NCBI GenBank assembly: GCA_030149285.1
Contig: JASBRU010000004.1
Span: 62,001 to 126,000 of the forward strand
Reading direction: 5' to 3'
Source of the DNA: Flavobacteriales bacterium
GTDB lineage: Bacteria; Bacteroidota; Bacteroidia; Flavobacteriales; JASBRU01
DNA: 64,000 nt
Both the position numbers and the translations under genes were made by a program. The notes beneath the pieces were generated by a model. That model did no database searches. It had not been told where the DNA came from and saw only the letters and a program-made list of their open reading frames with translations. Positions 11,034-55,668 of this stretch are shown here, piece by piece. Every line of letters begins with the position of its first letter. Within the stretch, counting starts at the first letter, position 1.

Positions 11034-12866
11034 ATGAAAAAATTTTACACTTCTTTAGCGGCTATTGCTTTAACAAGCACAGTTGCTTTCGGTCAAATAC
11101 AATTTGACCCAACGATTGATACATCATACACACCTGATGTAATTACAATGTCTCCATCTCCATTACAAACACAAGTACTTTTTATAGGTGGTGTAGATAT
11201 GGTACAAACTACTGCTACTTACGGTAACCCTGCAGGTGCTTACCCAGCAAAACAGTGGCATGACTTTATCGGTTTTACTCCAGACCCTTCTTCATCAGAC
11301 TTAGGTTGGTTATCTGTAAACCACGAAATGGTATTGGCAGATGACAACATTGGTGACGGTGGTGGTATGACTGTATTTAAAATTGCTCGCGAAGCTACTA
11401 CAGACTCTATTGTAATTGTACCACAAACTTTAGGTGATGGTCGTTCTGGTGAGTTTTTTAACGTAGACTTTGCTAATACTGTTGGTGAAACAGGTATGAA
11501 CTGTGGTGGTATCATCTCTAAGGTTGATGGTCGTATATGGACTGCTGAAGAGTGGTTCCGTGGAAACACTGCTAGTATTTATGATGGTGGTAACGGTGTG
11601 CGTGACACAGCTACATTTACTATTGGTACTGATGGTAATGCATCTGGTATTACTGTAGCAGACGGGCAAACTATTGATAAATACCAAAACTTCAACTGGA
11701 TGGTAGAAATTGATCCTCGTGAAGCTGTTGCAATTCGTAAGCAATACAACTGGGGTCGTCAGCCATTTGAAGGTGGTGTTGTAATGACAGATAACAGAAC
11801 AGTATATACTGGTGGTGATGCTACTCCTGGTTACTTCTCTAAATTTGTGGCTACTACTCCTGGCGATTTTACTTCTGGTAACTTATACGTATACAAGCAT
11901 GATAATGCAGGTGGTAATCCATGGGTACAAGTTGATAACTCAAACTTTAACAACATGCTAAAGTTTGATAGTGTTGCTGTTGCTTTAAGCGCTACAATGT
12001 TTAACCGTATAGAGTGGGTAACTGCTGATAACAGTGGTAAAGTTTACTTTACTGAAACCGGTAGAGATAACCCAGGTGGCCGTTGGGCAGGAGAGTTAGC
12101 AGATGGTGCTGTTTTAGCTCCTCACCACATTGCACGTGCTACTGCACAAGGAACTACTGCAGATGATGCAGCTTACGAAGATTTTTATGGTAGAGTAATG
12201 ATGTATGACCCTGCTACAAACAACATGAGTGTAAAAATTGAAGGTGGTCCTGATTTACCACAAACCGGAAACCCTCCATCTGCTTACCCTTCTACTCACT
12301 TATCTAACCCTGATGGTTTAAGTGCTTGGGAAGTAAATGGCAGAGAGTACTTAATTATTCAAGAAGATTTAAATGGTTCTGACTACGGTCGTGTACCAGA
12401 CGGAACCGGTAACAGAACTTGCGAGATTTTCTTGCTAGACTTAACTATCCCTAACCCAACACCAGATGATTTATTACGTATTGCTGTTGTGCCTTTAGGT
12501 GCAGAGGTTACAGGTGGTGTAGGTTCGCCTGATGGAAAAACATTATTCTTCAACTCTCAACACCCAAGCTCTAGTAACCCTTACCCATACAACAACTCTG
12601 TAACTATTGCAATTACAGGTTTTGATAAGAGCACAGTAGGTGTTACTGAAAACTTTAATGATGATGATACTTTCCAAGTTTTCCCTAACCCGGTATCTCG
12701 TGAGTTGAGAATGAACAAAGTTTCTGATGTTGCTATCTACAACTCAAACGGACAAAGAGTTTTAGTTGCTCGTCAAGTAAAAAGAGTTGATGTTTCTCAC
12801 TTAGATGCTGGTCTTTACATCATTATGGACGAAACTGGAAACAAAAAGAAATTAATAATCGAGTAA
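11034..12866 (+). CDS. phoX: PhoX-type (DUF839) secreted phosphatase with T9SS sorting domain
   Basis: About 610 residues. A Sec signal peptide (1-20, ending AFGQ) is followed by a PhoX-like beta-propeller with family landmarks: WLSVNHE near residue 94, EEWF, YTGGDATPGY, LSNPDGL with a following W, and near the C-terminus EVTGGVGSPDGKTLFFNSQHP. PhoX enzymes are Ca/Fe-dependent alkaline phosphatases. The last 70 residues (FQVFPNPVS...LDAGLYII...KKLIIE) form a type A T9SS C-terminal domain, so the protein is exported through the outer membrane. ATG 11034 is chosen over 10998 because the signal peptide begins there. Codon choice is strongly skewed to GGT, GCT, ACT and CGT compared with neighbours, a sign of high expression. 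Pho-box-like repeats precede it and a strong terminator follows. Confidence 0.85.
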   Translation: MKKFYTSLAAIALTSTVAFGQIQFDPTIDTSYTPDVITMSPSPLQTQVLFIGGVDMVQTTATYGNPAGAYPAKQWHDFIGFTPDPSSSDLGWLSVNHEMVLADDNIGDGGGMTVFKIAREATTDSIVIVPQTLGDGRSGEFFNVDFANTVGETGMNCGGIISKVDGRIWTAEEWFRGNTASIYDGGNGVRDTATFTIGTDGNASGITVADGQTIDKYQNFNWMVEIDPREAVAIRKQYNWGRQPFEGGVVMTDNRTVYTGGDATPGYFSKFVATTPGDFTSGNLYVYKHDNAGGNPWVQVDNSNFNNMLKFDSVAVALSATMFNRIEWVTADNSGKVYFTETGRDNPGGRWAGELADGAVLAPHHIARATAQGTTADDAAYEDFYGRVMMYDPATNNMSVKIEGGPDLPQTGNPPSAYPSTHLSNPDGLSAWEVNGREYLIIQEDLNGSDYGRVPDGTGNRTCEIFLLDLTIPNPTPDDLLRIAVVPLGAEVTGGVGSPDGKTLFFNSQHPSSSNPYPYNNSVTIAITGFDKSTVGVTENFNDDDTFQVFPNPVSRELRMNKVSDVAIYNSNGQRVLVARQVKRVDVSHLDAGLYIIMDETGNKKKLIIE

Positions 12867-14941: not shown

Positions 14942-15361
14942 ATGGCTGAAAACGAAAAATTCAACTCAGAGCAAGCACCGGAACCAGTAGGGTTATACCC
15001 ACATGCGCGCAAAGTAGGTAACTTATTATTCCTTTCGGGAGTAGGGCCTAGAGAACGTAACACCAAAAAAATACCCGGTGTAGACTTAGATGAAAATGGC
15101 AACATTACTTCTTATGACATTGAAACACAATGCCACTCTGTGTTTAAAAATATTCGTTTGATCCTAGAAGCATCCGGTTCTAGCTGGGATAACATTGTAG
15201 ATGTAACTGTTTTTCTGACCAATATGAAAGATGACTTTGCTACCTACAACCGTATTTATGCCGAATACTTTAAGGACAACCAGCCTTGTCGTACTACCTT
15301 AGAAATTAAATCGTTACCAACACCTATTGCTATTGAATTAAAGGTAATTGCTACAGTTTAA
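14942..15361 (+). CDS. RidA-family protein (possible 2-aminomuconate deaminase)
   Basis: This 139-residue protein has the RidA (YjgF/UK114) fold motifs: FLSGVGPRE, a central TVFLTNMKDDFATYNRIYAEYF, and CRTTLEIKSLPTPIAIELKVIA with the conserved substrate-binding arginine (CR at about 115-116). RidA enzymes hydrolyse reactive enamine/imine intermediates. The insertion after GPRE (KKIPGVDLDENGNIT) and the exact C-terminal block resemble the 2-aminomuconate deaminase subgroup of kynurenine degradation, but no other kynurenine gene is near. A degraded copy of its 3' end lies about 680 bp downstream at 16048-16118. It overlaps the convergent lipoprotein gene by four bases. Confidence 0.85.
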   Translation: MAENEKFNSEQAPEPVGLYPHARKVGNLLFLSGVGPRERNTKKIPGVDLDENGNITSYDIETQCHSVFKNIRLILEASGSSWDNIVDVTVFLTNMKDDFATYNRIYAEYFKDNQPCRTTLEIKSLPTPIAIELKVIATV

Positions 15362-16002
15362 TTTTTTATTACAGTTTCCAATAGGTCTGAATTAAAAATG
15401 CTTTTAGGTGATATTACCACTTCGTCTAGTGGTACTTTATCTCCATATCGTTGGGTAATAATTTCCCTTACTTCTGGTTCGTTAATATTAAAAGAACTTA
15501 ACTTTTCTAAACTCCCAAGTTTGAGTCCTGTAGCCTGATAATATATTTTCCAAACCAGTTCAGAACAATAAATTCTATCATCACTCCATTCAAAAAAGCT
15601 ATCATATGGTTTCCCCATATAAGTTTTTCCAATGTGCTTCATTTCTGCTAACACTTTCTCTGTTAGAATCTCATCACCCTTAAGTCTTTTAACAACAAAG
15701 TGTTCGCCTACCCCTCTTTGTATCCATTGGTTTAAAAGAGTAAGCTTTACAGGTTGTACAGCTTCAAACACAAATGTTCCATCATCAGAAATAAAAACAA
15801 TACCCATATGACTATATCTAGAGCCGGTAGCCATTTGTATAGCCTTACTTTGCGTAGACTTTGACGTTTGAAATATAATATCACCATCTTTTATTTCTTG
15901 CTCATTAGAAATGTTCTCATTGGAAATCACTTCTGAATTTGAGGTTGGGTTACAGGCAAGAAAAAAAATAGCTGTAATGCTTAGTAATATTGTATTTTTC
16001 AT
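15358..16002 (-). CDS. YiiX-like papain-fold lipoprotein
   Basis: This 214-residue protein has a lipoprotein signal peptide with lipobox LACN (Cys about residue 17) and the permuted NlpC/P60 (YiiX/YebB) fold: KDGDIIFQTS, then SRYSHMGIV with the catalytic His, and IYCSELVWKIY with the catalytic Cys. Family members are thought to act as thiol hydrolases or acyltransferases on lipids or peptidoglycan; the substrate is unknown. The start ATG at 16002 is exactly four bases after a perfect TAAATTTG -7 box on the minus strand (16014-16007), so the mRNA is probably leaderless. The gene lies wholly between ridA and a chimeric alkD/ridA scar. Confidence 0.82.
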   Translation of the reverse strand: MKNTILLSITAIFFLACNPTSNSEVISNENISNEQEIKDGDIIFQTSKSTQSKAIQMATGSRYSHMGIVFISDDGTFVFEAVQPVKLTLLNQWIQRGVGEHFVVKRLKGDEILTEKVLAEMKHIGKTYMGKPYDSFFEWSDDRIYCSELVWKIYYQATGLKLGSLEKLSSFNINEPEVREIITQRYGDKVPLDEVVISPKSIFNSDLLETVIKN

Positions 16003-16006
16003 ATTC

Positions 16007-16014
16007 CAAATTTA
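16007..16014 (-). promoter_or_regulatory. -7 promoter element of the YiiX-like gene (leaderless)
   Basis: The minus strand reads TAAATTTG, then GAAT, then the ATG at 16002. The exact N4 spacing from a perfect TAnnTTTG to the start codon is shared with the TetR, uvrC and padR genes in this window. Confidence 0.55.
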
Positions 16015-16023
16015 TAAAGAGAG

Positions 16024-16118
16024 ATGCAATACCAAGCTATACTGGACGAACTATCTTAGAAATAAAATCATTACCAACACCTATTGCCATTGAATTAAAG
16101 GTAATTGCTACTATTTAG
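16024..16118 (+). pseudogene. Chimeric scar: 5' end of alkD-like gene joined to 3' end of ridA
   Basis: The first 29 bases, from ATG 16024, translate as MQYQAILDEL and match the start of the AlkD-like gene at 17351 (MQYQTILDEL; 3 nucleotide differences). From about 16048 the sequence shifts to another frame reading GRTILEIKSLPTPIAIEL and on to a stop at 16116-16118, which matches the last 24 residues of RidA (CRTTLEIKSLPTPIAIEL...). The junction falls in CGAACT, which both genes share in similar form. Differences from the intact ridA are mostly synonymous, so the copy diverged while functional and was broken later. It abuts the acyltransferase stop exactly as the intact ridA stop abuts the YiiX-like gene. 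Confidence 0.85.
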
Positions 16119-17269
16119 TTTTTTTGAGGCTTAGAAAAACGCTCCCTTAAATTGGTCATTGGTTTCTCGTAATACTTATACAGCAATGTAGCTACTACTA
16201 AGCTTACTACCCAGTAGGTGGTATACAATAGTATTGCCTCTTGTTTGTCAGTAAACCACTCGGGTACAAATTTATACTTATAGTGCTCTACAGTTTCTTT
16301 AACTAAAGATAAGTGTACCACATATAGTGCGTAAGAAACAATACTTATGTAGGTAATAAATTTATACAGTACTCCTTTACCACTTTTTATACTATTTAAA
16401 AATGGCAATGTAAAAAGTACACCAATAGGCACTCTCAGGTACAAAATTACAATGGTATTAATCCCAAAGTTGATTTCCCTATGAGCATCCGGTGCTATAA
16501 AAAGCGATAGTATTCTTACCTTAAAAAGTATGTACAGCCCTATAATAAATAAGGGTATTTTATACTTTGCCCATGTTTTGGGGTAGTAGTGGTATATATA
16601 GGCTCCTAGTACTCCGTACATAATACTGTCTAACCTGGTAACTACAACTTTTCTTATGTAAACACCCAGTTCATTTACCTGATCAATATCAAAGGTATAA
16701 TACCTATACAGCCTTGCCAGTATAGATGCCAAGATAATGGCAATAATAGTTGTAAGCAGTGCATACCTTGCTTTTAGCTTAAAACCCCTAATAAATATAT
16801 AAATAAGCAAGGGGGTTAAAAGATAAAACCACTCCTCTACAGCCAAGCTCCAAGATTCAATAAAAAACGAATTATCTGCTACCAAAAAGTTCTGTAAAAA
16901 AAGCGGAAACAAGTACAATTGGTTTATTTGGTGCCCAATAGTTAGGTGTATAATTGCTAGTAGTAATACAATAAACACATAGTTGGGTAGGGTTCTAAAC
17001 CAGCGCCTTAACCAAAAATTTAAGAGGTCTTTTTTGGTGAAATCGGTGTTTTCTAAGGTCCTTATCAAGATGCCGCCAATCAAAAAACCACTCAACACAA
17101 AAAAGGCAGAGACCCCATCAAACCTAAAAAAGTTATAGGCTTTGGGAGAAACAAAATCATAAGCATAGGTTTTGCCATGCCCATATACAACGGTAAGTAT
17201 AGCAATGGCTCTTAGAATATCTAAGCCAAAAATTCTTTTTTCGCTAAACTTTACTCCTAAAAATTGCAC
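16115..17269 (-). CDS. Acyltransferase-3 family membrane protein (OafA/YrhL type)
   Basis: This 384-residue protein has ten or so hydrophobic segments and the acyltransferase-3 landmarks: FGLDILRAIAILTVVYGHG at about 14-32 with the conserved His, a short FFVLSGFLIGG segment, and a WSLAVEEWFYLLTP block near 140. Such enzymes acylate sugars, lipopolysaccharide or other envelope glycans. The start is GTG at 17269; no upstream ATG fits. The gene stop overlaps the ridA-derived scar by four bases. No sugar gene is adjacent, so the substrate is unknown. Confidence 0.85.
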   Translation of the reverse strand: MQFLGVKFSEKRIFGLDILRAIAILTVVYGHGKTYAYDFVSPKAYNFFRFDGVSAFFVLSGFLIGGILIRTLENTDFTKKDLLNFWLRRWFRTLPNYVFIVLLLAIIHLTIGHQINQLYLFPLFLQNFLVADNSFFIESWSLAVEEWFYLLTPLLIYIFIRGFKLKARYALLTTIIAIILASILARLYRYYTFDIDQVNELGVYIRKVVVTRLDSIMYGVLGAYIYHYYPKTWAKYKIPLFIIGLYILFKVRILSLFIAPDAHREINFGINTIVILYLRVPIGVLFTLPFLNSIKSGKGVLYKFITYISIVSYALYVVHLSLVKETVEHYKYKFVPEWFTDKQEAILLYTTYWVVSLVVATLLYKYYEKPMTNLRERFSKPQKN

Positions 17270-17327: not shown

Positions 17328-17345
17328 TATTCTAATATTAGAATA
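17328..17345. promoter_or_regulatory. 18-bp perfect palindrome before the AlkD-like gene
   Basis: TATTCTAATATTAGAATA is a perfect palindrome ending six bases before the ATG at 17351. A decayed form (TATTCCAAATTTATAAA) stands at the same distance before the alkD-derived part of the scar at 16024. It is a good operator candidate, but AT-rich palindromes also arise by chance. Confidence 0.45.
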
Positions 17346-17350
17346 CAAAC

Positions 17351-18049
17351 ATGCAATACCAAACCATACTAGACGAACTTAATAGGCTTGCCGAACCAGA
17401 AAAGGTGCTTTTTAAGCACAAAAAATACAATATTGTAGCCCACAATGCCTTGGGTGTTTACCAAAAAGACCTAAAAGAAATTGCCAAAAAAATAGGCTAT
17501 AATAATGCTTTAGCTATTCAGCTTTTTGATAGTGGTATTTACGAAGCCCGTATACTGTGCAGTAAACTATTCAATCCAAAAAACTTAACTAAGGAGTTGA
17601 TGGAAAAGTGGGTACAGACCTTTGAGAACTGGGAAATATGCGACTCTTTTTGCATGGGCTTATTTGCCAAAAGTGAACATGCTTATGAAAAAGCCCTAGA
17701 GTGGTCTCACAGAGAAGCTGAGTTTGAAAAACGAGCCGGCTTTGCCATTATGGCAGCCTATTGCATGGCCGATAAAAAAGCCGATAACAAAACATTTGAT
17801 GCATTTTTAGAACACATTACAGCTGAAGCAAGCGATGATAGACAATATGTAAAAAAGGCTGTAAACTGGGCGCTCCGTAATATTGGAAAAAGAAACAAAG
17901 ACCTCAACAGAAAGGCAATTTCTACTGCTGAAGAAATAAAAAAGCAGGGGACAAAACCCGCCATATGGATTGCAAATGACGCCCTAAAAGAGTTGCAATC
18001 TGAAAAGCTAAACATCTTAGAATACCCCAGACATATCTATAGAAACTGA
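17351..18049 (+). CDS. AlkD-like DNA alkylation repair protein (HEAT-like)
   Basis: This 232-residue, all-helical protein is of the AlkD/AlkC DNA glycosylase family. The central FENWEICDSFCMGLF (about 89-103) holds the Trp and Asp typical of the catalytic groove, and KKAVNWALRNIGK (about 167-179) is the other highly conserved HEAT-like helix. Members excise positively charged alkylated bases such as N3- and N7-alkylpurines without flipping them. An 18-bp palindrome lies just before the start, suggesting its own regulation. The 5' end of a divergent second copy is preserved in the scar at 16024. Confidence 0.85.
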   Translation: MQYQTILDELNRLAEPEKVLFKHKKYNIVAHNALGVYQKDLKEIAKKIGYNNALAIQLFDSGIYEARILCSKLFNPKNLTKELMEKWVQTFENWEICDSFCMGLFAKSEHAYEKALEWSHREAEFEKRAGFAIMAAYCMADKKADNKTFDAFLEHITAEASDDRQYVKKAVNWALRNIGKRNKDLNRKAISTAEEIKKQGTKPAIWIANDALKELQSEKLNILEYPRHIYRN

Positions 18050-18083: not shown

Positions 18084-18108
18084 CCCACTTCTAAAGAAAG
18101 GCTTTTTG

Positions 18109-21100
18109 ATGCAAAAGAAATATCCCGAATATAAAAAGTTAGACCTCTCTGCGATCAACAAAGAGGTACTAAACTATTGGAAAGAAAATAACATCTTCGA
18201 AAAGAGTGTATCTACTCGCGAAGGCAATGATACCTTTACTTTTTACGAAGGCCCGCCTTCGGCAAACGGTATGCCCGGTATACACCACGTAATGGCACGT
18301 ACCATTAAAGATATTTTTTGCCGTTACCAAACCCTACAAGGCAAGCAAGTACACCGTAAGGCAGGTTGGGATACCCACGGTCTTCCGGTAGAGCTGAGTG
18401 TAGAAAAAGAGTTGGGCATTACCAAAGAAGACATCGGTACTAAAATTTCGGTAGAAGAATACAACCAAAAGTGCCGCGAAAACGTGATGAAATACAAGCA
18501 CGTTTGGGAAGATTTAACAGACAAAATGGGCTACTGGGTAGACATGAGCGACCCTTATGTAACCTATGATAATAAATACATAGAGAGTGTTTGGTACTTG
18601 CTAAGCCAGATGTATAAAAAAGACTTTTTATACAAAGGTTACACCATACAACCTTACTCTCCGGCTGCCGGTACGGGTTTAAGTACCCACGAGCTAAACC
18701 AACCTGGTACTTATAGAGATGTAAGTGATACTACGGTTACAGCTCAGTTTAAAATAGTAGCTGATGACGAAAAAGCGGCTGACTTAAGAGCAGCTGCAAA
18801 ATCAGATGTATACTTCTTGGCCTGGACCACAACCCCATGGACATTGCCATCAAACACTGCTTTGGCAGTAGGTAAAAAGATAGATTATGTGTTGGTAAAC
18901 ACCTACAACCAATACACAGGTAAACCCGTAAGTGTAGTATTGGCAAAAGACTTGTTTGGCAAGCACTTCCCAGAGAAGAATGCCGAGCTAAGCATGGATG
19001 AATACAAAGCCGGCGACAAAAAAGTGCCTTTTGAGTTGGTAAAAGAATACAAAGGTGCTGACTTAGAAGGTATCCGTTATGAGCAGCTATTGCCATATGC
19101 ACAGCCTACTGATGGCGATGCCTTTAGAGTAATCATCGGTGATTATGTAACTACCGAAGACGGTACCGGTATTGTACACATTGCGCCTAGCTTTGGTGCG
19201 GATGATAATCGTGTGGCAAAAATGGCTGGCATTGGTTCGCTTACCCTAGTAGATTTACAAGGTAAGTTTACCCAAGAAATGGGCGAGTTTGCAGGTGAGT
19301 ATGTAAAAGAAGAATACATAGATGAAGCTGATAAACCGGAAGACTACAAAAATGTAGACATCCGTATTGCCATAAAACTGAAAGAAGAAAACCTTGCTTT
19401 TAAGGTTGAAAAATATGTACACAGTTACCCACATTGTTGGAGAACTGATAAGCCGGTATTGTACTACCCGCTAGACTCTTGGTTTGTAAAAACCACATCG
19501 GTAAAACAGCGCATGATGGACTTAAACAAGACCATCAACTGGAAACCTGCTTCTACAGGTACAGGGCGTTTTGGTAACTGGCTAGAAAACTTGGTAGACT
19601 GGAATTTATCTCGTTCTCGTTTTTGGGGTATACCAATCCCGATATGGACTAGCGAAGACCGTACCGAGCAAAAATGTATTGGCTCTGCTGAAGAGTTGAG
19701 AGCTGAAATAGAAAAAGCTGTTGCAGTCGGCTTTATGGATAACAATCCATTGGCAGATTTTACACCGGGAGATTTCTCTAAAGAAAATTATGAGACTTTT
19801 GATTTTCATAAACCGTATGTAGATCGTATTATCTTGGTTTCAGACTCCGGCAAACCAATGAAGCGTGAATCTGATTTAATTGATGTTTGGTTCGATTCGG
19901 GTTCTATGCCGTATGCACAATTGCACTACCCTTTTGAGAACAAAGAGGAATTTGAAAACAACTACCCTGCAGATTTTATTGCCGAGGGGGTAGACCAAAC
20001 ACGTGGTTGGTTCTTTACATTACATGCCATTGCTACTATCTTATTCGATTCTGTGGCTTACAAAAATGTAGTGTCTAACGGATTGGTGTTGGATAAAAAC
20101 GGACAGAAAATGTCTAAGCGATTAGGCAATGCCGTAGATGCTTTTGATACCATAGAAACTTATGGCTCCGATGCTACCCGCTGGTACATGATTACCAACG
20201 CACAACCTTGGGACAACCTTAAGTTTGACCTAGAGGGTATAAAAGAAGTACAACGTAAGTTCTTCGGAACCCTATACAATACCTATTCTTTCTTTGCATT
20301 GTATGCCAATATTGATGGCTTTACGTATGCCGAAGAAGAAATGAAACTGGAAGACAGACCGGAACTGGATCGTTGGATTTTATCAGAATTAAACACCCTG
20401 ATAAAAGAAGTAAATACTGATTTTAGTAATTACGAGCCAACAGGTGCAGGTCGAAAAATGGAATACTTCTTAGAGAAGTTAAGCAACTGGTATGTACGCT
20501 TAAGCAGAAGACGTTTTTGGAAAGGCAGCTACGGACAAGACAAAGTATCTGCTTACCAAACCTTATATCACTGTTTAACGGCTATGGCAAAAATGATTTC
20601 GCCAATAGCACCGTTTTTCTCAGAGCGTTTGTTTGCTGATTTAAATGGTGTTTGCAATAAAGAAAACTGCGAATCTGTACACTTAAGCCTCTTCCCTGAG
20701 TACAATAAGTCTGCTGTAGATAAAGACTTAGAAATACAGATGGATTATGCACGACAAATAACATCGTTAGTGCTTTCTATCCGTAAAAAGGAAAACATAA
20801 AGGTTCGTCAGCCTTTAAATAAAATACAAATACCTACCGTTAATGCTGATGTAAAAGCCAAAGTAGAAGCGGTACGAAGTTTGATACTTTCTGAAGTGAA
20901 TGTAAAGCAATTGGAGTTTGTAACCGAAGAGGATACACAGTTGGTAAAAAACATGAAGCTGAACTTCCGCAACTTAGGTGTGAAGTATGGCAAGCTGATG
21001 AAGAGTATCCAACAACATACAGGAGCTAATAGCGATGCAGTAATTAAAGCTATAGAAACCGAAGGTGTATATAACTTTGATATTGATGGTGAAGCAGTAA

Positions 21101-21468
21101 GCCTTATGCCGGAAGATGTAGAGATTATACCGGTAGATATTCCGGGTTGGAAAGTAGCTACATCAGGTATACATACTGTGGCTTTGGATGTAACTATAGA
21201 TGATGATTTACGTGAAGAGGGTATAGCAAGAGAGCTAGTAAACCGTATACAAAACATGCGTAAAGAAATTGGCTTAGAAGTAACTGATAAAATAGAGCTG
21301 TCTATCCAAAGCAATGAGCAACTGGATAAGGCAATAAGTAATAATTTAGAGTACATATGTAACGAAACGTTGGCTGAAAAATTAAACATGGTAGAAGAAG
21401 CACCAAGCAATAATTTTTCTGTTGAGTTTGACGATATAATTACCTACATTGCCCTATCTAAAATTTAA
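18109..21468 (+). CDS. ileS: Isoleucyl-tRNA synthetase
   Basis: This 1119-residue class I synthetase attaches isoleucine to tRNA-Ile. The nucleotide-binding HIGH motif appears as PGIHH at about 56-60 after FYEGPPSANG, and KMSKS as GQKMSKRLG near residue 664-672; WDTHGLPVE and the CP1 editing domain (TTPWTLPSNTA) lie between. The anticodon-binding region (LSNWYVRLSRRRFW) and a C-terminal extension without an obvious zinc finger follow, as in the longer eukaryote-like IleRS type common in Bacteroidota. ATG 18109 is used rather than the TTG one codon upstream. It probably heads a run with the DksA-like gene, lspA and a glycosyltransferase; gaps are 12, 4 and overlap. Confidence 0.97.
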   Translation: MQKKYPEYKKLDLSAINKEVLNYWKENNIFEKSVSTREGNDTFTFYEGPPSANGMPGIHHVMARTIKDIFCRYQTLQGKQVHRKAGWDTHGLPVELSVEKELGITKEDIGTKISVEEYNQKCRENVMKYKHVWEDLTDKMGYWVDMSDPYVTYDNKYIESVWYLLSQMYKKDFLYKGYTIQPYSPAAGTGLSTHELNQPGTYRDVSDTTVTAQFKIVADDEKAADLRAAAKSDVYFLAWTTTPWTLPSNTALAVGKKIDYVLVNTYNQYTGKPVSVVLAKDLFGKHFPEKNAELSMDEYKAGDKKVPFELVKEYKGADLEGIRYEQLLPYAQPTDGDAFRVIIGDYVTTEDGTGIVHIAPSFGADDNRVAKMAGIGSLTLVDLQGKFTQEMGEFAGEYVKEEYIDEADKPEDYKNVDIRIAIKLKEENLAFKVEKYVHSYPHCWRTDKPVLYYPLDSWFVKTTSVKQRMMDLNKTINWKPASTGTGRFGNWLENLVDWNLSRSRFWGIPIPIWTSEDRTEQKCIGSAEELRAEIEKAVAVGFMDNNPLADFTPGDFSKENYETFDFHKPYVDRIILVSDSGKPMKRESDLIDVWFDSGSMPYAQLHYPFENKEEFENNYPADFIAEGVDQTRGWFFTLHAIATILFDSVAYKNVVSNGLVLDKNGQKMSKRLGNAVDAFDTIETYGSDATRWYMITNAQPWDNLKFDLEGIKEVQRKFFGTLYNTYSFFALYANIDGFTYAEEEMKLEDRPELDRWILSELNTLIKEVNTDFSNYEPTGAGRKMEYFLEKLSNWYVRLSRRRFWKGSYGQDKVSAYQTLYHCLTAMAKMISPIAPFFSERLFADLNGVCNKENCESVHLSLFPEYNKSAVDKDLEIQMDYARQITSLVLSIRKKENIKVRQPLNKIQIPTVNADVKAKVEAVRSLILSEVNVKQLEFVTEEDTQLVKNMKLNFRNLGVKYGKLMKSIQQHTGANSDAVIKAIETEGVYNFDIDGEAVSLMPEDVEIIPVDIPGWKVATSGIHTVALDVTIDDDLREEGIARELVNRIQNMRKEIGLEVTDKIELSIQSNEQLDKAISNNLEYICNETLAEKLNMVEEAPSNNFSVEFDDIITYIALSKI

Positions 21469-30419: not shown

Positions 30420-30848
30420 ATGAAGAATATTACTCTATTATTAATTCTTACACTTATCAGCTGTAAATCAACCCTACTTGCACAAAGTACAGGCGAAATT
30501 AGCGGGGTTATTTATGATTCCTTGTCAGGCGAAGAAATTCCCGGAGCAAACGTATATGTAGAAGTTGATGGCGAAAAAATTGGTGGTACTACCGATATAA
30601 ATGGTTGTTTTACAATCAAATCTTTAAAACCTGGGTTGTACGATGTTAAAGTATCTTTTATAGGATATGTCACGCAAACTGTAGTTGATATAAAGGTTTT
30701 TGCAAATCAGGTTACCAGCTTATATGATATAAAGCTTATAGAGGACACATTGCCTAAGGGTTGTTATGGAGGACCGCTTTTTCAAAATAAAAATGCTTCA
30801 AAATTTGAAACCTCTGGCCAAGAAATTCACAACCTACCATACAGATAG
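30420..30848 (+). CDS. Short secreted CarboxypepD_reg-like protein (truncated paralogue of the next gene)
   Basis: 142 residues: signal peptide (about 1-21, with a SCK segment that could be a lipobox), one CarboxypepD_reg beta-sandwich (about 25-105, GEISGVIYDSLSGEEIPGANV...) and a short tail. It is closely similar to the N-terminal half of the protein encoded at 30947; alignment continues to HNLPYR, where the paralogue enters its plug domain (HELPRTQNLNEIVA). So the gene is either a truncated duplicate or a stand-alone domain protein. No plug-like sequence is seen after its stop. ATG 30420 is the start that gives a signal peptide. Confidence 0.75.
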   Translation: MKNITLLLILTLISCKSTLLAQSTGEISGVIYDSLSGEEIPGANVYVEVDGEKIGGTTDINGCFTIKSLKPGLYDVKVSFIGYVTQTVVDIKVFANQVTSLYDIKLIEDTLPKGCYGGPLFQNKNASKFETSGQEIHNLPYR

Positions 30849-30946: not shown

Positions 30947-31729
30947 ATGAAAAAGAAAATATTATTACTGGTTTTTGCTGCGATTTCGTTTGGGGGGGTG
31001 TCTTTTGCCCAAAATAGCGGAGAGATTAACGGCAAGGTTTATGATGCCTCCTCAGGCGAAATTATAATCGGGGCAAACGTGTATGTAGAACTAGGAGAAA
31101 CAAAAATTGGTGGCGCAACCGATATAAATGGTCGGTTTACTGTTAAGCCACTACCCCCGGGTACTTATATTGTTAAAGTATCATTTATTGGTTATACCGA
31201 AAAAAAGATTGCCGGCATACAGGTATATGCTAACCAAGTTACTTACCTGAATGATATAAAAATATCTGAAGGCGGAACAACTTTAGGCCCAATTGAATTA
31301 TCAAGTGGTCCTCCGATTGGTCACAAAAATCCAAATTTAGTTCAAATTTCTAGTGCTAAAATCCATGAGTTACCCAGAACTCAAAACCTCAATGAAATTG
31401 TAGCAACAGTTGGAGGCGGAACTTATGTAAGTGATGATGGGCAAACTTTACATGTAAGAGGAGCGCGACCAAACTCAAATTCTTACTATATTGATGGGGT
31501 TTTGGTACAAGACATAAACTCATCTATGGTACCATCTAACGCAATAGGTAGTATGCAAGTTTATGTAGGCGGAGTACCAGCCAGATATGGCGATGTAACA
31601 GGTGGTGTAATAGCTATAGAAACACGCACTTATTTTGATGATTACTATGAAGCTGTTTATTTAAATAGCCTTTACGAAGAGGCTGCTAAAAAGAAAAAAG
31701 AGAAAGAAGCAGCAGAGAACAAGGAATAA
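30947..31729 (+). CDS. CarboxypepD_reg plus TonB-receptor plug protein without a barrel
   Basis: 260 residues: signal peptide (about 1-21), CarboxypepD_reg domain (about 22-105), a receptor plug domain (about 130-225, IHELPRTQNLNEIVATVGGG ... LHVRGARPNSNSYYIDGV ... VYVGGVPARYGDVTGGVI) and a charged C-terminal tail (EEAAKKKKEKEAAENKE). All the sequence marks of a SusC/TonB-dependent receptor N-terminus are present, but the 22-strand barrel that should follow is absent; the stop is clean and a sigma factor gene begins 15 bp later. The protein is likely periplasmic, perhaps bound to a separate barrel or acting as a signalling module for the adjacent sigma factor. Confidence 0.85.
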   Translation: MKKKILLLVFAAISFGGVSFAQNSGEINGKVYDASSGEIIIGANVYVELGETKIGGATDINGRFTVKPLPPGTYIVKVSFIGYTEKKIAGIQVYANQVTYLNDIKISEGGTTLGPIELSSGPPIGHKNPNLVQISSAKIHELPRTQNLNEIVATVGGGTYVSDDGQTLHVRGARPNSNSYYIDGVLVQDINSSMVPSNAIGSMQVYVGGVPARYGDVTGGVIAIETRTYFDDYYEAVYLNSLYEEAAKKKKEKEAAENKE

Positions 31730-53968: not shown

Positions 53969-54042
53969 GGCCCCGTAGTTCAACTGGATAGAATATCAGA
54001 TTTCGGCTCTGAGGGTTGGGGGTTCGAATCCTCCCGGGGTCA
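53969..54042 (+). tRNA. tRNA-Arg (anticodon TCG)
   Basis: 74 bases fold normally: acceptor stem GGCCCCG/CGGGGTC, D-arm GTTC/GAAT, anticodon stem TCAGA/TCTGA with loop TTTCGGC (anticodon TCG, codon CGA), T-arm GGGGG/CCTCC with loop TTCGAAT, discriminator A73 at 54042. No CCA is encoded (CACAAC follows). A diverged copy of its 3' part, from the anticodon loop onward, lies 540 bp downstream at 54586-54627. Confidence 0.95.
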
Positions 54043-54069
54043 CAACTATAAATCTACTATCTTTAAAGT

Positions 54070-54570
54070 ATGGAAAATCAGGTTTTAGACGATGCATTTC
54101 AAGAAATAAAAGAAAGAAGACGCAAGCTACTCCCTTGGTGGATACGTTTTTTTACATGGGTATATATGATTTTTGGAGTTATAGCCCCTCTTGGACTTAT
54201 TGCAGGCATTGCAGGCTGGCAGTTTAACTTATCTATTTATGGCTTAAGTACTGTGCAGCCTTTGTCTATTATAGGCCTAGTAATTATCTGTTTATTTATA
54301 TTGAATGGACTAGCTGCTTTTGGCCTTTGGTTAGAAAAAGACTGGGCAATACTATATGCAAAGGCTGCCGGTTATACAGGCATAGTGGTTTGTATTTTTA
54401 CCATGTTTATAATGCCTTCTCTATTTCCGCCACACGATAACTCTATTTATTTTGTGAATGGGAGTACTTCTATTAGTATTAGGTTAGAGCTTGCTTTACT
54501 TACTCCGTTTGTAATACGCCTAAGCAAAATACAGCGGGAGTGGAAACTAAGAGGCTTTAGTGCTATATAG
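54070..54570 (+). CDS. Small multi-pass membrane protein of unknown function
   Basis: I do not recognise this 166-residue protein. It has a basic N-terminus (QEIKERRRKLLPWW), about four hydrophobic segments (about 27-48, 65-86, 95-113 and possibly 133-147) and no signal peptide. It lies alone between the intact tRNA-Arg and the half tRNA-Arg. TATCTTTA, one mismatch from the -7 consensus, ends exactly four bases before its ATG. Confidence 0.6.
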   Translation: MENQVLDDAFQEIKERRRKLLPWWIRFFTWVYMIFGVIAPLGLIAGIAGWQFNLSIYGLSTVQPLSIIGLVIICLFILNGLAAFGLWLEKDWAILYAKAAGYTGIVVCIFTMFIMPSLFPPHDNSIYFVNGSTSISIRLELALLTPFVIRLSKIQREWKLRGFSAI

Positions 54571-54585
54571 TTTTACTATATTTTA

Positions 54586-54627
54586 TTTCGGTTCTGAGGG
54601 TTGCAGGTTTGAATCCTGTCGAGGTCA
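54586..54627 (+). pseudogene. 3' half of a tRNA-Arg (anticodon loop to discriminator)
   Basis: Over 42 bases (TTTCGGTTCTGAGGGTTG... to GAGGTCA) this aligns without gaps to the intact tRNA-Arg from its anticodon loop to A73, with seven differences. In the T-stem one change is compensated (G-C became C-G), so the copy evolved as a functional tRNA. Nothing upstream matches the 5' half. Partial tRNA copies like this are typical products of integrase-mediated insertion (att sites) or of a truncated tandem tRNA gene. The present acceptor 5' strand would mispair with it at one position. Confidence 0.75.
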
Positions 54628-54657
54628 CTTACTAATTAATCATATTAATAAAATCTT

Positions 54658-55668
54658 ATGGATTTCCCGAAAAGAAAACAACAGCATAAATCTCAATCAG
54701 ACTCTTTTGCAATACTTTTATATAGGCTCAAAGAGCTTGGAATATTTAGAAGTTTTACTGAAAATGACTACGGTATTGATTTTGAAATCGAAATAATTCT
54801 TAAAGAAAATGTCATTGGAAAATATTTAAAAGCACAAGTAAAGAGTGCTCAAAAAGTAAAAATTCGAAAACGTGATAATATCCCTACTATAAGCGGAATT
54901 AAACAATCTACACTTTTATATTGGGCTGAATTAAGTTTCAAAAGCCCTGTTGTAGTTTTTGCTGTTGACCTAAAAACTGAAGCAATATATTACACAAAAA
55001 GTGTTTTTTGGCAGGCTACTAAGTTAATTGACGACACCAATAAATCTAAAACTATTGAATTCCTACCTGCGTTGGAGTTACCTAATACAGAAGATAATAT
55101 TACTAAAAAAAAGATGGAGGGTTTTATAACTAGTTTACTAGTGAAAAAAATTGCTTATGACCCTAGTATAAGTGATATAATTTTTGCACATAAAACTATC
55201 CTTAGAAGTCTTAAAAATATATTTGATATGTATACTGATACATGGCATTACGATGCTTGGACTGAAGTTCAATCTTTAGATATTTTTAAAACTACTCTCG
55301 ATTGCTCCATATATCTTATCGAGCTTCCTAAAGAAATTGATGGTGTTGATGCTGATGATTTGAAAAACCTTTTAAGTTTTGACTATTGGGCAAAAAAAAC
55401 TAATTGGTCAGGCGATGAAGTCTCAAATGAAATTGCAAAAATTCCACTCAAAATTATTTTACCCCTTTTACTAAGTAGAATATCTTATTTCTCCAATATG
55501 ATTTTAGATGCTAAAACCTACTGGCAACATAAAGACATTGCTTACTTGAAACTAGTCCATTCAATTAAAATTCCTGAAAACCTTGATCATGAATCAATAA
55601 CAGACATTAGTTATAATAATACCCCTTTAACAAATGATGTTCCCTTTTCACATTATTTATTAGTATAA
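54658..55668 (+). CDS. DUF4365-domain protein, predicted nuclease-like
   Basis: This 336-residue protein has no signal peptide. Its N-terminal about 140 residues match DUF4365: RKQQHKSQSDSFAILLYRLKELGIFRSFTENDYGIDFEIEI followed by GKYLKAQVKSAQKVKI. The Asp of YGIDFEIEI and the AQVK (QxK) motif are in the order expected for a PD-(D/E)xK-like nuclease fold with Gln for Glu. The C-terminal about 190 residues are helical and unrecognised. DUF4365 proteins turn up in accessory islands and in some defence loci. The gene is visibly more AT-rich than its neighbours and sits right after the half tRNA. Confidence 0.72.
   Translation: MDFPKRKQQHKSQSDSFAILLYRLKELGIFRSFTENDYGIDFEIEIILKENVIGKYLKAQVKSAQKVKIRKRDNIPTISGIKQSTLLYWAELSFKSPVVVFAVDLKTEAIYYTKSVFWQATKLIDDTNKSKTIEFLPALELPNTEDNITKKKMEGFITSLLVKKIAYDPSISDIIFAHKTILRSLKNIFDMYTDTWHYDAWTEVQSLDIFKTTLDCSIYLIELPKEIDGVDADDLKNLLSFDYWAKKTNWSGDEVSNEIAKIPLKIILPLLLSRISYFSNMILDAKTYWQHKDIAYLKLVHSIKIPENLDHESITDISYNNTPLTNDVPFSHYLLV

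Follow-up and report, generated by a model that had tools for sequence, protein, structure and literature searches.

The DNA analyzed was a stretch of 64 kb, referred to as the window, from a source genome of 2.05 Mb in 9 contigs that is 76% complete and has no relative from its own family in the collection searched. The window contains an intact ridA gene, a C92 gene, a chimeric scar, an acyltransferase gene, an intact alkD gene, and ileS. The order from ridA to alkD, including the minus-strand orientation of the two middle genes, had been correctly given by the sequence-only reading of this DNA. The coordinates are listed in Table 1. The two middle genes belong to unrelated Pfam families, and the same middle gene is therefore not present twice, as it would be after a simple tandem duplication. 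The C terminus of the C92 protein matches that of a homologue ending one residue later, and the GTG start of the acyltransferase gene is backed by a paralogue of 58% identity from this genome.

Table 1. Features of the region from ridA to ileS (positions are those of the window)
Feature	Position	Strand	Description
ridA, intact	14942..15361	+	RidA/YjgF family, 139 aa; Pfam PF01042, 5e-29; shares 88% identity with an order-level relative
C92 (YaeF/YiiX) permuted papain-like amidase, first middle gene	15358..16002	-	PF05708, 3e-32; lipoprotein-like N terminus
Flank	16003..16023	+	Probably homologous to the sequence directly upstream of alkD, strongly diverged; 14/22 aligned columns identical
Scar	16024-16118		95 bases, non-coding; between the minus-strand C92/YiiX gene and the acyltransferase gene
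alkD'	16024..16052	+	First 29 nt of alkD; 26/29 identical to 17351-17379, 3 differences
Junction CGAACT	16047..16052	+	alkD codons 8-10 / ridA codons R117-T118
ridA'	16047..16124	+	Last 24 ridA codons, stop TAG at 16116-16118, plus the shared TTTTTT; matches 15290-15367
Acyltransferase-3 family membrane protein, second middle gene	16115..17269	-	PF01757, 3e-25
alkD, intact (DNA alkylation repair)	17351..18049	+	PF08713, 6e-29
ileS, ancestral right-hand neighbour of ridA	18106..21468	+	PF00133; immediate successor of ridA in several families of relatives

Self-comparison of the 64-kb window revealed that positions 15285-15367 match 16042-16124 (83 nt, 88%, E 2e-21) and that positions 16002-16052 match 17328-17379 (52 nt, 79%, E 6e-4). 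Both the ridA and the alkD repeat of the scar rank among the five strongest in the window. The 88% match on the ridA side and the 26 identical positions of 29 on the alkD side bore out the earlier claim that the scar joins the 5' end of alkD to the 3' end of ridA. Both coding halves are in register, and the number of indels inside either half is zero; after the junction and up to the stop, ridA' differs from the intact ridA at 7 of 66 positions. The sequences at the junction are GACGAACT in alkD, GACGAACT in the scar, and GTCGTACT in ridA. A crossover at a shared CGAACT had been proposed, and this hexamer is indeed common to the scar and alkD, whereas the intact ridA reads CGTACT; the certain microhomology is the 3-nt ACT, or CG-ACT with one mismatch. 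Because CGA and CGT are synonymous arginine codons, a parental ridA carrying CGA would provide the full 6-nt microhomology. The scar thus contains a novel joint at a short identity (in the range of about 3-10 nt) between otherwise unrelated sequences, as is characteristic of the products of homology-facilitated illegitimate recombination.

The 21-nt flank upstream of the scar was compared with the sequence upstream of alkD, and the match had a shuffle P of about 0.05 and fell within the best 1.3% of window positions; the flank is therefore probably a real homologue of the alkD upstream sequence. The sequence-only reading had described a decayed palindrome shared with alkD at this position; the homology of the flank is probable but weak, and the palindrome itself is not preserved. 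The scar at present encodes no protein and accounts for the bulk of the C92 upstream sequence. On the minus strand (16003-16060), just upstream of C92, lies TAAATTTG with TTG 18 nt before, an arrangement that we take to resemble the Bacteroidota promoter consensus. By this likeness, the alkD start retained in the scar may include a candidate C92 promoter.

We further compared the interval between ridA and ileS in relatives. In order-level relatives of families f6, f8, and f15 and in part of f7, ileS comes immediately after ridA with a gap of -3 to about +17 nt, whereas in other genera the interval comprises 1 to 11 kb of unrelated genes. Genes found there elsewhere include MNT-HepT, an AAA ATPase, a solute-binding protein, and, as judged by eye, SDR-like and HD-like genes. 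The adjacency in some families and the different genes in other genera show that the space between ridA and ileS is a variable slot, in which C92, the acyltransferase gene, and alkD are all insertions. Thus alkD also belongs to the insert, a fact of which the sequence-only reading was unaware. In the best 80 AlkD loci in GTDB genomes, ridA, C92, the acyltransferase gene, or ileS was near alkD in 0 of 80, and the neighbourhood of alkD is not conserved. A genome with a single form of the locus (ridA-C92-alkD or ridA-acyltransferase-alkD) was not found among the searched genomes, where none was to be expected because the collection includes no other genome of the same family.

The tabulation of the changes between the scar and the intact genes over 31 codons yielded seven synonymous and three non-synonymous changes (dS about 0.29, dN about 0.04), which agrees with the earlier statement that most differences are synonymous. 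The expected non-synonymous share is 59% if the scar alone was free to change (P 0.06) and 74% if both copies were free to change (P 0.004). Divergence is about 11% in both scar halves, and the non-coding flank differs in 8 of 22 columns compared with 11 of 96 in the coding parts (P 0.008). The scar encodes Ile at RidA residue 139, as is common in relatives, and the intact ridA encodes the rarer Val, indicating that this change is not a product of scar decay. AlkD residue 5, which is Ala in the scar and Thr in the intact gene, is a variable position, and both residues occur in relatives. The Thr119Ile change of the RidA part of the scar is absent from 30 relatives examined, which indicates that some scar decay has occurred. 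These substitutions weakly suggest that two functional alleles diverged before joining and decayed slightly afterwards. The earlier proposal that the copies diverged while functional and were joined later is thus weakly favoured (P about 0.06 and 0.008), and the timing evidence is weak because the counts of substitutions are small.

The main rival explanation is a tandem duplication within one lineage, in which an unequal crossover joining alkD codon 10 to ridA codon 117 would have duplicated the segment from the ridA 3' end through one middle gene to the alkD 5' end; one copy of the middle gene would later have given way to an unrelated gene, and the scar would have decayed. This course of events leads to the same final anatomy, its first step needs no donor, and tandem duplication with illegitimate recombination in bacteria is described in a 2024 paper (PMC11111574). 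Nevertheless, decay from the start predicts that about 59-74% of the changes are non-synonymous, compared with the 3 of 10 that were seen (P 0.06 to 0.004 by model); the non-coding flank is also more diverged than the coding parts, and a separate, precise gene replacement is required at a later time. We therefore consider this explanation unlikely, although it deserves serious weight. The sequence-only reading had also pointed out that both minus-strand middle genes end four bases into a ridA stop. Both overlaps are present (C92, 15358-15361; acyltransferase, 16115-16118), and both genes end in KN-stop, but the overlaps are less telling than they appear. Since both genes cross the same ridA-stop/poly-T sequence, the overlaps are not strong evidence for either model.

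On the basis of the sequence comparisons, we consider it fairly probable that the scar is a fossil of additive recombination in a variable gene slot, where two allelic forms have been stacked. The ancestral order, as the relatives show, was ridA-ileS, and the slot in this lineage and its close kin would subsequently have been occupied by accessory genes in two or more forms, which we infer to be ridA-C92-alkD and ridA-acyltransferase-alkD. Donor DNA with one form may then have entered a cell carrying the other, with homologous pairing on one side (ridA or alkD). On the opposite side, an illegitimate join would have linked codons 8-10 of the alkD from the C92 form to codons 117-118 of the ridA from the acyltransferase form at the 3- to 6-nt microhomology. 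The joint is seen in the sequence, whereas the joining event is deduced from it. The product would retain a single intact copy each of ridA and alkD as well as both middle genes, between which the alkD'-ridA' piece remains. The chimeric joint and the presence of both alternatives side by side thus speak for the earlier idea that two allelic loci were merged in tandem, but as an interpretation it is only partly supported. No integrase was found in the slot, and the only two integrase genes found in the genome are both on another contig (C2). The presence of comEC in the source genome suggests that DNA uptake is possible, but most bacteria carry this gene.

Other bacteria are known to undergo this process, and the scar well exemplifies an already familiar type of genome change. 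Homology-facilitated illegitimate recombination has been described in the natural transformation of Acinetobacter, S. pneumoniae, and P. stutzeri, as cited in PMC5361080, and in E. coli conjugation (PMC3240628). The scar resembles its products in having one homologous end and one illegitimate end at a short identity; however, those cases were proven by experiment, whereas the present case is deduced from a single fossil. For the T6SS effector-immunity arrays of Vibrio cholerae, the authors proposed a mechanism akin to homology-facilitated illegitimate recombination, in which the incoming module is anchored by homology on one side and the old 3' end is shifted behind the new module (PMC5361080). 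The scar shares this arrangement, but the pieces retained in the arrays are immunity genes and effector ends, whereas the scar is a chimera of the end of a housekeeping gene and the start of a repair gene. In S. pneumoniae merodiploids, transformation drives tandem duplication through unequal pairing; these duplications span about 100-900 kb and involve long repeats, in contrast to the less than 2 kb and the microhomology of the present locus (PMC3784515).

A second displaced ridA end, an independent analogue that speaks for the stacking explanation, was found in a genome of family f7 (G006), in which the order is ridA, MNT, HepT, a remnant of the ridA 3' end, another gene, and ileS. Immediately after the stop of HepT, which forms a pair with the nucleotidyltransferase (PF01909, PF01934), positions 1511-1588 of locus L168 match the terminal 72 nt of ridA and 5 further nt (77% over 78 nt). 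The G006 fragment and the window scar start at the same ridA codon, R117 (CG-AC); by a rough positional estimate, the chance of two such cases is 0.02-0.05. This shared start in two families is suggestive but too little for a claim of site specificity. A search with the RidA C terminus in about 168 genomes recognized displaced copies only in the window and in G006. Short matches in G244 and G400 proved to be contig ends on checking, the remaining short matches (e.g., G091, G052, G036, and G111) look like contig ends, and a RidA-like stretch inside the ileS of G325 was set aside as probable chance.

Integrative elements that enter at tRNA and other gene ends leave a displaced 3' end. The present locus is similar in that an intact gene is followed by cargo and then by a copy of the 3' end of the gene: ridA and ridA' flank C92, with the original 3' end displaced behind the insert, and the same holds for G006. 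The locus differs in that an integrase was not found in or beside the insert and in that the scar also holds the start of alkD. It is conceivable, but we consider it quite improbable, that the ridA 3' end is the target of integrating elements whose own 3' end completes ridA while the original one is displaced, in which case C92 and MNT-HepT would be cassette remnants. The two displaced ridA 3' ends, which both run from codon R117 in different families, and the tRNA-Arg 3' fragment that lies behind a small ORF in the window accord with this explanation. However, neither slot contains an integrase (both integrase genes of the source genome are on C2, and 0 of 10 in G006 are on the ridA contig), only 2 displaced 3' ends occur among about 168 genomes, and the model alone does not explain the alkD half of the scar. 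A related idea, which we regard as speculative and improbable, is that R117-T118 at the ridA 3' end is a preferred, previously undescribed site at which small cassettes lacking an integrase enter across Flavobacteriales-like families, with the displaced ridA ends as footprints. When the literature was searched for integration at ridA, none of the matches listed was on point.

The G006 arrangement also bears on an assembly or binning artefact that would have joined two strain variants of the locus. The source assembly is incomplete and probably represents a metagenome bin, where strains can be mixed; nevertheless, overlaps used in assembly are usually far longer than 3 to 6 nt, the difference in the halves is about 11%, and G006 provides a natural analogue in another family. 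An artefact is thus very improbable.

We then scanned 464 kb of the source genome and 400 kb from each of two relatives (G010 and G013) for similar scars. The source genome contained three displaced gene ends or pieces, namely the alkD'-ridA' scar, a tRNA-Arg, and a gene on contig C5; G010 contained a few comparable pairs, and G013 none that was clear. The comparable pairs elsewhere in the source genome and in G010 indicate that such scars are not peculiar to the ridA locus. The tRNA-Arg(tcg) at 53969-54043 is followed by an ORF without a Pfam match (54070-54570) and by a copy of the tRNA 3' half (54578-54628), which begins near the anticodon loop and is 80% identical over 51 nt; the next gene (54658-55668) encodes a DUF4365 protein. 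Integration at the 3' end of a tRNA would be expected to leave such a footprint, but no integrase accompanies it. On C5, an NMT1-like gene is closely followed by a second copy of 86 nt from its interior (L261:11406-11491 and 11685-11770, 85%), which lies next to a minus-strand DUF418 gene. Elsewhere in the window, a 256-nt stretch recurs with 68% identity in two adjacent same-strand genes (30478-30733 and 31005-31260), which are probably a tandem paralogue pair.

For the locus alone, the interest is modest. If the stacking of two allelic forms is the right explanation, one short scar documents, within one genome, how accessory genes accumulate in a chromosomal slot instead of replacing one another, with no mobile-element machinery involved. 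The slot between ridA and ileS, together with the second footprint in another family, would then offer a small natural system for measuring the frequency of additive recombination.
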